From assembly GCA_022823465.1 (NCBI GenBank), contig JAJEHX010000007.1, positions 1 to 64,000 on the forward strand: a stretch of 64,000 bases of DNA, written 5' to 3'. Below the pieces are notes generated by a model. The model was not told the DNA's origin, made no database searches, and was given only the letters and a program-made list of their open reading frames with translations. The stretch's first letter is position 1. Each line of letters begins with the position of its first letter. Below are positions 55,899 through 59,088 of the stretch, in pieces. The stretch is from Candidatus Latescibacterota bacterium. Lineage in GTDB: Bacteria > JAAXHH01. The translations under genes and the position numbers were made by a program.

Positions 55899-56075
55899 GG
55901 GTCAATCCGGCGGATAGGCCGGGGCAGGGGATTCCGACGAGTCCGATGTCGAGTTCGTAGACTTTGGTTACGATGTTTTCATGGGTCTCTCGACTAAACG
56001 AATATACCGCGCGGCACTAAGGAGAAGCAAGCTGTTTTATCCTGCGCGACTGTCCGTATTTACAGGGAAATTCGC

Positions 56076-56104
56076 TTGACTTGCCGTACGTGTCGCGCTA
56101 TACT
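56076..56104 (+). promoter_or_regulatory. ssb promoter
   Basis: TTGACT (56076-56081) and TATACT (56099-56104) with exactly 17 bases between, 35 bases before the ssb start. This is the best sigma70-type match in the window. Confidence 0.75.
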
Positions 56105-56138
56105 CATCTCATTCATTTCAAGATAAGGAGCATCTTCG

Positions 56139-56576
56139 ATGGCCAGTTTGAATAAAGTCATTCTGATCGGTAATCTCGGCGCGGATCCCGAAATGAGGTA
56201 CACGCCTTCCGGCCGGGCCGTGGTCAATTTCCGCATGGCCACTACGCGCCAGTGGAACACCCAGGACGGAGAACGGCGGGAAGAAACGGAATGGCACCGG
56301 ATCGTAGCCTTTTCGAAACTGGCGGAGATCTGCGGCCAGTATCTCAAGAAAGGCGCTCCGGTGTATGTCGAAGGACGGCTGCAAACCCGTTCCTGGGAGG
56401 ACCAGAGCGGGATGAAACGATATACGACCGAGATCGTCGCGAACGAGATGCAAATGCTGAGTGCCCGCCAGCAGAGCGACGTTGCATCTGACCCGCCCGG
56501 AGGAGTAGGCAGTACAGCGCCGGAATCGCCGCCTTCCGCACCTGATTCCGGGGCCGACGACGACCTTCCGTTTTGA
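56139..56576 (+). CDS. ssb: Single-stranded DNA-binding protein
   Basis: 145 residues. The OB fold occupies ~1-108 ([58 protein letters not shown]). A short flexible linker ends in the acidic tip DDDLPF, which recruits partner proteins. AAGGAG precedes the ATG and a strong promoter lies just upstream. It is divergent from lptF. Confidence 0.96.
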
Positions 56577-56645: not shown

Positions 56646-57344
56646 ATGACCGTTAGACTTAGCGGCAACGGACTTCCTCGAATAACGATGCTCATTGCCC
56701 GGCAGGAATCCGTCGAGCCGCTGATCAGGTGGCTGAGCGGCGCGGGTTATCCGCTTGCGGAACTGCATTACTCCGTCGTTGAAGACCTCCACGCCCGTAT
56801 TCCCGAATCGGACGTCCTGCTCATCCATACGGACCGTCCAGGGTCGGACCTTCCCTTTGTGATGGATGAATTGCAGTCGCGGCAGTTCCGGCAGGTCCCC
56901 GCTGTAATCGTGCTGACCGGCTGCGACGCCATAGGCGATCTCGATGTCACCCGGGGAATTGACGATTTCATCTGCGCGCCGTACAATATCCGCGAGTTCG
57001 ACCTGCGTCTCAAGAACGTCCTCTGGCGCCGCCACAGCGTGCAGATTCAGGATATGATCGTCTGGGGCGATCTGCTGATCAACCTGGGCAACTACGAAGT
57101 TACGATCCGGGGCAAGGCGATCGACCTGACCCTCAAGGAATACGAACTGCTCAAACACCTGGCCCGGCACAGAGGACGGGTGTTCACGCGGGATGAATTG
57201 CTGACTGCCGTCTGGGGATACGATTATTTCAGCGGCACGAGGACGGTGGATGTGCACGTGAGGCGGCTGCGGATGAAGATCGAGCGCCACGGTGTGCATA
57301 TCATCACGACCGTCCGGGGGGTCGGGTACAAGTTCGGTGACTGA
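56646..57344 (+). CDS. OmpR/PhoB-like regulator with degenerate, aspartate-less receiver
   Basis: 232 residues. The C-terminal ~100 are a clear winged-helix DNA-binding domain (LTLKEYELLKHLARHRGRVFTRDELL, TRTVDVHVRRLRMKIE, GVGYKF). The N-terminal half is receiver-like but has lost its phosphorylation residues. The strand that should end in the acceptor Asp reads DVLLIHTDRPG, with His at that place, and the KP motif is changed to APYNIREF. No histidine kinase is adjacent. It probably works by another signal or constitutively. The next gene, a TPR lipoprotein, starts two bases after its stop. Confidence 0.82.
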   Translation: MTVRLSGNGLPRITMLIARQESVEPLIRWLSGAGYPLAELHYSVVEDLHARIPESDVLLIHTDRPGSDLPFVMDELQSRQFRQVPAVIVLTGCDAIGDLDVTRGIDDFICAPYNIREFDLRLKNVLWRRHSVQIQDMIVWGDLLINLGNYEVTIRGKAIDLTLKEYELLKHLARHRGRVFTRDELLTAVWGYDYFSGTRTVDVHVRRLRMKIERHGVHIITTVRGVGYKFGD

Positions 57345-57345
57345 C

Positions 57346-59088
57346 ATGCGTAAAACCTCGTTGATCCTATTCGCTTCTGCCTGCGTGATATTCGGGTGCG
57401 CGTACTACAATACCTTTTACAACGCCAAGAAGGCGTTTGAGGAAGGGGAGCGTATACGGATCAACCTGCAGACGCCTGACGGCAGTTTACCTCCCCTGGC
57501 CGTCGCCTCCTACGAACTCGCGATCGAGAACGCCGGCCTTGTCCTGCGGGATCATTCGGGAAGCTCCCTGGTCGACGACGCGCTGGTCCTGATCGGCGAC
57601 GCCCGGGCGATACAGGGACAGCATCTCCAGGCCATCAAGCGGTATGAGCAAGTGCTCAGGCTCTTCCCCGACAGCGAGTTCGTTTCGCACTGCCTTTTTT
57701 CGCTGGGCAGAAGCCACTTCGACGCGGGCGATCCCCTTCAGGCCGATGAACTGCTGGATCGTTTCATACGGGAATACCCCGGCAGCGACCGGGCCCCCGA
57801 CGCCTATATGCTCAGAGGCGAGATCGCCTTCGACAACGGACGGTACGAGGAGGCCGTCGCGCGATTCGAAGCCTACCTCGCGATCCATCCCGGCGACGAC
57901 CGCCAGGCGGAGGCCCTGCACTACATCGGGCGGTCAAACCTCGAATTGAATCGCTTCGATGAGGCGAGGTCCCTTTTCGAGCGGGTCATCGCGCAGGCCC
58001 GGACGCAGACGTTGAGGTACCGGGCGGAATTCATGGTGGGGGAGAGCCTTCGCCGCGAGGGCGAATATGGCGCCGCGCTCGCAGTATTCGAAATGTTGCT
58101 GGCACAGCGGGATTACGCGGGTTACCGCCCCGAAGTCATGCTGTCCATGGCCGCGTGCCAGGTCGGCCTGGGCGTGGTTGAAGCAGCCATATCCCGCTAC
58201 GTGACCATCGTGTCCGAATTCGAAGACGATCGCGACTACGGCGAGGAAGTATCGCGGGCCATGTACGAACTCGCCGAACTGTACAGAAACTCTGGCAGAC
58301 TGGAGTTTGCGGAGCAGCATTACGCGGACGCGCTCCGCAAGAGTCCGCGGGAATACTGGGTCGGTAATGAAGCGGAAAGAAAAAACCGTGCCATAGGCGA
58401 ACTGCGTCGCTTAAACGGCAATCTGGAGAATATGTTGAGTGCGCTGGCATCGACGAAGGCGCGCGAAGACGGCGGACCGGGCCACGCTTCGAATATGGCG
58501 AGGCTTACGGAAAACGTGGTCGGGATTCGTTTTCAACTGGCCGAGCACTACCTGTTCCAGCTGGACATGGCCGATTCCGCGTTGAGTCAGTATCGATCCA
58601 TCGAAATCGAATCCGGCGACCCTGCTCTGGCCGCCAGGGCAGCCTTTGCGAGAGCCTGGGTACTCGACGAAGTGGTAGGGGATCCTGCGCGGGCAAACGC
58701 CGTCTACGATGCCATTACGGAGCGGTATGCAGGGACGGACCACGCCGTGGAGGCGGCCATCGTGCTGTCGAGACCGATCGAGGGCGAGCTTCCCGAGGAG
58801 CGGTTGTTCGCCGAGGCGGAAAGGTTGCTGTTCGAAGCGGACCGGCCCGACTCCGCGCGCGGGCTATACGACCTGGTCGTCAGCCGCTATCCGGACGGGG
58901 AGTACGCGCCGCGGGCGCTCTATGCGCTGGGATGGCTCGCCGAGACGCGTTTCGGCGAGCCGGAGACGGCCCTGGAACGCTATCGCGACATCGTGGAACG
59001 CTATCCCGGGTCGGACCAGGCGAAATCTGTCCGCGACAAGATTCGCCTGATGGAAGCGCTGCGCCAGGGCGCGGAGCCCGACAAATGA
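57346..59088 (+). CDS. TPR-repeat lipoprotein
   Basis: 580 residues. MRKTSLILFASACVIFGCAY gives a signal peptide with lipobox IFGC, so the mature protein is lipid-anchored at the Cys. The YYNTFYNAKKAFEEGE that follows is typical of envelope TPR lipoproteins in FCB-group bacteria. TPR-like pairs run through most of the length (for example ALVLIGDARAIQGQHLQAIK, AEALHYIGRSNLELNRFDEA, ALYALGWLAETRFGEPETAL). It is likely an envelope scaffold similar in layout to BamD or YbgF-type proteins. It starts two bases after the regulator stop. Confidence 0.85.
   Translation: MRKTSLILFASACVIFGCAYYNTFYNAKKAFEEGERIRINLQTPDGSLPPLAVASYELAIENAGLVLRDHSGSSLVDDALVLIGDARAIQGQHLQAIKRYEQVLRLFPDSEFVSHCLFSLGRSHFDAGDPLQADELLDRFIREYPGSDRAPDAYMLRGEIAFDNGRYEEAVARFEAYLAIHPGDDRQAEALHYIGRSNLELNRFDEARSLFERVIAQARTQTLRYRAEFMVGESLRREGEYGAALAVFEMLLAQRDYAGYRPEVMLSMAACQVGLGVVEAAISRYVTIVSEFEDDRDYGEEVSRAMYELAELYRNSGRLEFAEQHYADALRKSPREYWVGNEAERKNRAIGELRRLNGNLENMLSALASTKAREDGGPGHASNMARLTENVVGIRFQLAEHYLFQLDMADSALSQYRSIEIESGDPALAARAAFARAWVLDEVVGDPARANAVYDAITERYAGTDHAVEAAIVLSRPIEGELPEERLFAEAERLLFEADRPDSARGLYDLVVSRYPDGEYAPRALYALGWLAETRFGEPETALERYRDIVERYPGSDQAKSVRDKIRLMEALRQGAEPDK

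Follow-up and report, generated by a model that had tools for sequence, protein, structure and literature searches.

An OmpR-type regulator whose receiver domain lacks the phospho-acceptor aspartate is probably the nitrogen regulator of its phylum, working like the actinobacterial GlnR without the aspartate that is essential in mycobacteria. Its gene lies in a window of 64,000 nucleotides, the whole stretch of DNA in question, from a Candidatus Latescibacterota bacterium. That the function is likely GlnR-type follows from evidence on other contigs and not from the neighbours of the gene: an array of four half-sites stands before the glutamine synthetase gene glnA and the ammonium-transporter gene amtB1, and from the sequences we infer that the regulator binds it.

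The regulator gene and its phosphorylation pocket

The gene (56646..57344, forward strand) encodes a GlnR-like protein of 232 amino acids, described here from its open reading frame, Pfam matches, an AlphaFold model and likeness to PDB entries. The model (17 sequences, mean pLDDT 83.2, pTM 0.54) predicts five strand/helix units followed by a winged helix. The pseudo-receiver domain, delimited by the model and by alignments, takes up residues 12-130 (56679..57035, forward strand), and the winged-helix DNA-binding domain residues 137-232 (57054..57341, forward strand), with 56-59% identity to the S. erythraea GlnR domain; the recognition helix, a helix of the model supported by alignments, spans residues 199-213 (57240..57284, forward strand). 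In a Pfam scan of the protein, Trans_reg_C (PF00486) matched at 97.5 bits, with a cut-off of 26.2; an earlier note on this DNA had described the DNA-binding half as normal. Response_reg (PF00072) gave no match at E <= 1 in the same scan, and the gene is not one of the 17 places that PF00072 picks out in the genome, which sets it apart from canonical response regulators. PF00072 recognises most characterised pseudo-receivers (PMC12632262), unlike the one described here.

Alignment with canonical receivers puts H61 (codon 56826..56828, forward strand) at the position of the acceptor aspartate, A111 (codon 56976..56978, forward strand) at that of the conserved lysine and I17-A18 at the acidic pair, while the Y/T-coupling positions T91 and F108 are retained. 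The earlier note had read DVLLIHTDRPG and APYNIREF in the receiver and concluded that the acceptor aspartate and the KP lysine are missing. Both stretches are found in the reading frame, and the receiver alignment that the note had proposed as a check agrees with its conclusion: the aspartate of IHTD is D63, two residues late, so the TD does not coincide with the acceptor, and the acidic pair is not intact. With aspartate, lysine and both acidic residues absent and a receiver fold predicted, the domain is an aspartate-less pseudo-receiver. Histidine at the acceptor position is rare among such receivers, in which arginine, lysine and histidine together make up 4% (PMC4395418).

Conservation and selection in the phylum

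The phylum was represented by 16 genomes of five genera, 12 of them from the window's genus. The regulator gene is present in all 16, without an internal stop in any; the protein shares 90-96% identity with its 11 counterparts within the genus and 67, 59, 54 and 51% with those of the remaining four genomes. The acceptor position holds histidine in nine genomes and glutamine in seven, and the lysine position alanine in 15 and glycine in one. DD1 is acidic in none (0/16) and DD2 is glutamate in two (L015 and L016), while T91 is retained in 15/16 and F108 in 16/16. Since aspartate and lysine are missing from every genome and the receiver is under purifying selection, the missing pocket is, as judged from these alignments, neither a sequencing error nor chance. 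The suggestion in the earlier note of a phosphorylation-independent regulator conserved in its lineage is thereby supported as far as sequence goes. Public records that match the protein bear the names Candidatus Latescibacterota, Gemmatimonadetes or uncultured bacterium.

Within the genus (12 genomes, 66 pairs), the receiver has a dN/dS of 0.155 and the DNA-binding half one of 0.0094. The corresponding values for a PhoB-type paralogue are 0.043 and 0.089 (11 of the 12 genus genomes, L073 being left out), and residues 1-105 of Ssb give 0.032 (11 of 12, without L002). The order of constraint is thus opposite to that of the paralogue, which points to a pocket half that has been freed and a DNA-reading half that is almost fixed. 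Could the receiver simply be degenerating and have no role, so that only the DNA-binding half matters? Outside the genus its identity falls to 34-55%, compared with 71-86% for the DNA-binding half, as decay would have it. But a dN/dS well under 1, the retention of T91 and F108 noted above, the lack of internal stops in all 16 genomes and the predicted receiver fold make this the least probable of the explanations considered, and a highly improbable one.

Similarity to GlnR and other OmpR-type proteins

The best PDB sequences, both for the protein and for its family profile, are 8hih, 8hig and 8hml; in the fold search these entries carry the name GlnR, from M. tuberculosis and S. erythraea. Residues 197-209, GTRTVDVHVRRLR, are identical in the regulator, 8hih and 8hig, i.e. 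the recognition helix is of the GlnR type. Receiver places number 17 in the genome and Trans_reg_C places six; the recognition helices of the other five Trans_reg_C proteins differ: the PhoB-type paralogue has GYGRTVDAHIKRLR, and the remaining four are further off. This paralogue (G000:C19) is a canonical OmpR-type regulator with a PhoR-like kinase gene beside it, as identified by eye. Three frames of 605-798 residues that carry a receiver and a winged helix (G000:C20, C26 and C36; L060-L062) are of unusual size for the OmpR type.

The Pfam model of the GlnR receiver, GlnR_1st (PF21695), did not match the regulator at E <= 1 in the Pfam scan, and none of the 16 phylum genomes passes its cut-off (best 19.4 bits against 27). 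The model does not decide the matter, because the scores of ordinary paralogues, about 16 bits, are close to those of most orthologues. A tree of the DNA-binding domain with 45 rows places all canonical rows opposite GlnR, the order of the window's organism and the other pseudo-receivers, with weak branch support (35/73). The best NCBIfam matches are MtrA, YycF and PhoB, all far under their cut-offs. Fold matches include HP1043 (2hqr) and RitR (5u8k, 5u8m); these comparisons concern the fold only, as full-length superpositions have a large rmsd.

Thirteen related pseudo-receivers (L039-L048, L055-L057) were found in records named Latescibacteria or Gemmatimonadetes, with L040 recorded as ‘bacterium’. 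Twelve of the 13 have the aspartate and 11 the lysine; DD1 is alanine in all 13 and the second acidic residue is intact in all 13. In the table of pocket residues, the lysine position of L050 is unread, L052 has gaps at the aspartate and L057 ends early. Of three scored with GlnR_1st, L039 (28.8 bits) and L047 (41.3 bits) pass the cut-off of 27 and L056 (26.8 bits) falls just under it. No ssb gene is present in the fetched flanks of these 13 related genes.

A GlnR-type array upstream of glnA and amtB

Because the regulator resembles GlnR, glutamine synthetase and ammonium-transporter genes were sought in the 16 genomes. Four box patterns, three modelled on published GlnR sites (Table 2 of PMC10704036) and one relaxed, were run against 52 upstream regions. 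The mycobacterial box, kTAAC-n6-GmAAC in the same table, had been picked before the upstream regions were inspected. It occurs upstream of glnA in 13 of 15 genomes, being missed in L090 and L092, and 19 of 6000 shuffled glnA upstreams carry it. Before amtB1 it was seen in one of 13 (L109, on the other strand), and it is absent from the 12 upstreams of a 450-aa glutamine synthetase and the 12 of amtB2. Neither of two Streptomyces box forms matched any of the 52 regions. The box in L109 and relaxed matches in L117, L118 and L100 are not part of the conserved element, look like chance occurrences and were set aside; the relaxed match in L120 falls within its six-fold array.

Alignment of the upstream regions reveals the full element. 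All 15 aligned glnA upstreams carry four half-sites of 5 nt at an 11-bp phase, TTAAC-n6-TTAAC-n6-GAAAC-n6-GAAAC, from which the distant ones deviate by single changes, and all 13 aligned amtB1 upstreams carry TTTAC-n6-TTAAC-n6-GAAAT-n6-GTAAC or variants. The n6 spacers of glnA and amtB are partly different, and conservation across the set does not extend upstream of the array. As with GlnR, boxes stand before both genes, at glnA in 16/16 genomes and at amtB1 in the 12/12 genomes of the genus. At least six half-sites at the 11-bp phase are found at G013:C73:4952-5011 (six, before amtB), G012:C110:573-648 (amtB by position) and G012:C42:23547-23644; this last array lies near a contig end, so the gene after it is unseen. 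A PII gene, identified by eye, comes after amtB1 in the window's genome. In L190 and L201-L203, from other Latescibacteria, the PII-amtB order is the reverse.

The array stands close to a putative promoter. A total of 33 rows with a perfect match were compared, including one duplicate and four from outside the phylum. Their best -10-like hexamer lies 10 nt downstream in 24, 8 nt in six, 9 nt in two and 14 nt in one, and the six rows with a spacing of 8 also carry TACATT at 10. Inspection of the glnA and amtB promoters of the genus revealed no TTGACA-like -35 sequence at the usual distance.

Specificity of the array in whole genomes

In the 3.86 Mb genome to which the window belongs there are two perfect matches to the four-part array, before glnA (C26:39371) and amtB1 (C26:104263); at three mismatches one unrelated place and the glnA site read in a shifted register are added, and the backwards pattern gives one match. 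Within the genus, a search at up to two mismatches gives exactly two matches in every one of the 12 genomes, both perfect and before the same two genes. The four phylum genomes outside the genus have the glnA array with no mismatch, and three of them have an amtB array with one or two mismatches (G013, plus G012 and G015 by position); a search of the fourth, G014, for ammonium-transporter genes gave no amtB match. Together, the 16 genomes contain 37 matches at up to two mismatches versus three for the backwards pattern. A three-part pattern with a -10-like hexamer 10 nt downstream also gives exactly two perfect matches per genus genome; at up to two mismatches it gives 59 versus 19 backwards, and the imperfect ones are given no weight. 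A third target, a two-mismatch site with a -10-like hexamer that four genus genomes share (G010:C28:30873, G008:C42:38345, G006:C52:11996 and G002:C78:32410), was rejected; in the two cases that were fetched no clear downstream gene is found.

The perfect score at glnA and amtB is circular, because the four-part pattern was drawn from those promoters; independent support is limited to the published box, the rarity of the array elsewhere and the genomes outside the phylum set. Ten such outside genomes were reached via loci with related pseudo-receivers, i.e. they were picked for carrying such proteins. At up to one mismatch they contain nine matches in seven genomes, eight directly before a glutamine synthetase gene or amtB and one at a contig end. 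At up to three mismatches, nine of the ten have a match before one of these genes, some of them weak, and the totals (64 versus 62 backwards) give no excess, so that here only location speaks. PII-amtB operons with weaker arrays are present in G059, G060, G061 and G063, G060 having only three-mismatch matches. G066, the genome of L051, has arrays at two amtB genes and one glutamine synthetase gene. G064 has two two-mismatch matches before other genes, and G067, which also carries a related pseudo-receiver, has no match at up to three mismatches. In 43 genomes of other families a single match at up to one mismatch was found, before a gene judged by eye to be unrelated, and the backwards pattern also gave one. 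G050, the holder of the pseudo-receiver L017, has no array at this threshold.

Does the pseudo-receiver protein itself read the array, or might another regulator do so, leaving this protein with other targets? Candidates would be the PhoB-type paralogue or the long receiver/winged-helix proteins. The paralogue is also of the OmpR type and has a PhoR-like kinase after it (by eye), there are five further Trans_reg_C proteins in the genome in all, and in Streptomyces MtrA binds GlnR boxes, according to a title cited in PMC10704036. However, among the Trans_reg_C proteins of the genome the GlnR-type recognition helix is found in this protein only, and the array is common to outside genomes that were picked for this kind of protein. 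Moreover, 42 of the 43 other-family genomes are without the array at up to one mismatch though 37 have an OmpR-type match, a tally taken over OmpR-type matches as a whole. Reading by another regulator is therefore considered unlikely, and binding by the pseudo-receiver protein is preferred.

Neighbouring genes and local DNA

Upstream of the regulator gene, in all 16 genomes, is ssb (56139..56576, forward strand; Pfam), preceded by a sigma-70-type promoter, TTGACT-17-TATACT (56076..56104, forward strand), which is kept in the 15 loci aligned (L002 was left out) and probably transcribes the regulator as well. Downstream is a gene for a TPR-repeat protein (57346..59088, forward strand; TPR by Pfam), probably a lipoprotein by an assessment of its N terminus by eye. 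Its start codon lies 1 nt past the regulator stop, so the two genes are probably co-translated in the genus. This gene occupies the downstream position in 12 of the 16 loci, all within the genus; in L038, L014, L015 and L016 it is replaced by a gene for an Asp-rich-repeat protein, probably exported (named by eye). No kinase gene was seen from lptG/lptF upstream to pyrF downstream. The neighbours are lptF, ssb, the TPR gene, pyrK, pyrD and pyrF, and the regulator is an orphan like GlnR; lptF, lptG, ssb, the TPR gene and pyrK were assigned by Pfam, and pyrD and pyrF by eye. These assignments agree with the setting given in the earlier note, between ssb and an envelope lipoprotein and with no kinase.

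No 11-bp array was seen upstream of ssb in the 15 aligned loci, where the sigma-70 promoter and other conserved bits are found. The divergent lptF/ssb intergenic region (55899-56138) contains several short conserved blocks in addition to the ssb promoter. Within the 64-kb window the four-part array has no match at up to three mismatches. Two-part GlnR boxes number five, slightly above chance (shuffles have a mean of 2.23, with five or more in 5 of 100), and none is near the regulator gene.

A role as a plain, constitutively acting pseudo-receiver regulator of genes for the envelope or DNA repair is an alternative, akin to the picture in the earlier note. The constant adjacency of ssb and the probable co-translation with the TPR gene fit such a role. 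Yet the downstream gene is different outside the genus and the window is without the four-part array, and this explanation is judged to be very unlikely. A reading of function from the neighbours is rejected on the same grounds; the ssb and lipoprotein genes look incidental. Phosphorylation independence and conservation remain from the earlier interpretation, but the neighbours proved a poor functional guide, and GlnR-type control of glnA and amtB had not been proposed in it.

A model for nitrogen control

In the preferred GlnR-type reading, four copies of the regulator would bind head to tail on the four half-sites and be joined receiver to receiver, like GlnR in its actinobacterial complex with RNA polymerase. 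Four GlnR molecules there lie head to tail on four sites, and a receiver tetramer bridges to RNA polymerase (PMC10704036); four half-sites close to a -10 element fit this published complex. The bound copies would make up for the lack of a -35 element and turn on glutamine synthesis and the uptake of ammonium, presumably at nitrogen shortage. Activation, as opposed to repression, and nitrogen shortage as the signal are both presumed by analogy with GlnR.

How would the signal be received? According to PMC10704036, the aspartate of actinobacterial GlnR is unphosphorylated and supports the dimer, a D48A strain of M. smegmatis is similar to a glnR mutant, and the nitrogen signal is called unknown. 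The phylum departs from GlnR at this point, histidine or glutamine standing in place of the dimer-supporting aspartate in 16/16 genomes. As the aspartate is absent, the receivers would have to be held together, and nitrogen sensed, without it. The signal might instead arrive through the level of the protein, through a ligand, through a modification of another kind or through a partner, for example PII or glutamine synthetase.

Significance

To our knowledge, the group to which the window belongs has no cultured member. The regulator is not a standard member of the GlnR family, as the Pfam receiver model and the missing aspartate indicate. On balance, the evidence tips towards GlnR-type nitrogen control that extends beyond the actinobacteria, with glnA and amtB as its core. 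It would operate in the window's phylum, where the receiver without aspartate would be a fixed assembly platform and nitrogen would be sensed outside the pocket, in other Latescibacteria and in at least one further bacterium (the L051 genome).

The phylum offers a natural experiment, as it retains the target sites while the aspartate is replaced. A signalling route shared with the actinobacteria therefore cannot depend on the aspartate. The analysis further assigns a probable function, with two target genes, to a pseudo-receiver; the control of pseudo-receivers as a class is called a mystery in PMC12632262. A literature search, judged by titles and the openings of abstracts, found no paper that joins GlnR with Latescibacteria-type bacteria. 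Among the matches listed for GlnR with Chloroflexi or homologues and for Latescibacter response regulators, none treats the subject, as judged in the same way.

Comparison with known systems

PhoB binds head-to-tail 11-bp sites close to a -10 element where no good -35 is present, and it needs phosphorylation. The glnA and amtB promoters have the same layout of sites near -10 with no good -35, but a canonical PhoB-like regulator is encoded separately in the genome, next to a PhoR-like kinase gene identified by eye.

ChxR, HP1043 and RitR also combine an aspartate-less receiver with an OmpR-type DNA-binding domain; they are from different lineages and are known for targets other than those proposed here. 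The pseudo-receivers of other Latescibacteria (L039-L048, L055-L057) are likewise of the OmpR type, have a GlnR-like domain and, in most genomes searched, are accompanied by an array before glnA or another glutamine synthetase gene. Unlike the regulator in the window, they mostly retain the aspartate (12/13) and the lysine (11/13).

Actinobacterial GlnR (8hih, 8hig, 8hml), an orphan of the OmpR/PhoB type, differs in that its aspartate is retained and needed where histidine or glutamine is found here (PMC10704036). It belongs to another phylum, and the receiver described here is under the GlnR_1st cut-off. The Y/T-coupling Thr and Phe are retained in the present regulator, and S. coelicolor GlnR has Tyr and Val (PMC10704036). 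The two systems share the order of domains, the lack of an adjoining kinase, a degenerate pocket, the recognition-helix stretch, glnA and amtB as targets (predicted here) and four half-sites with 6-nt spacers before the promoter.
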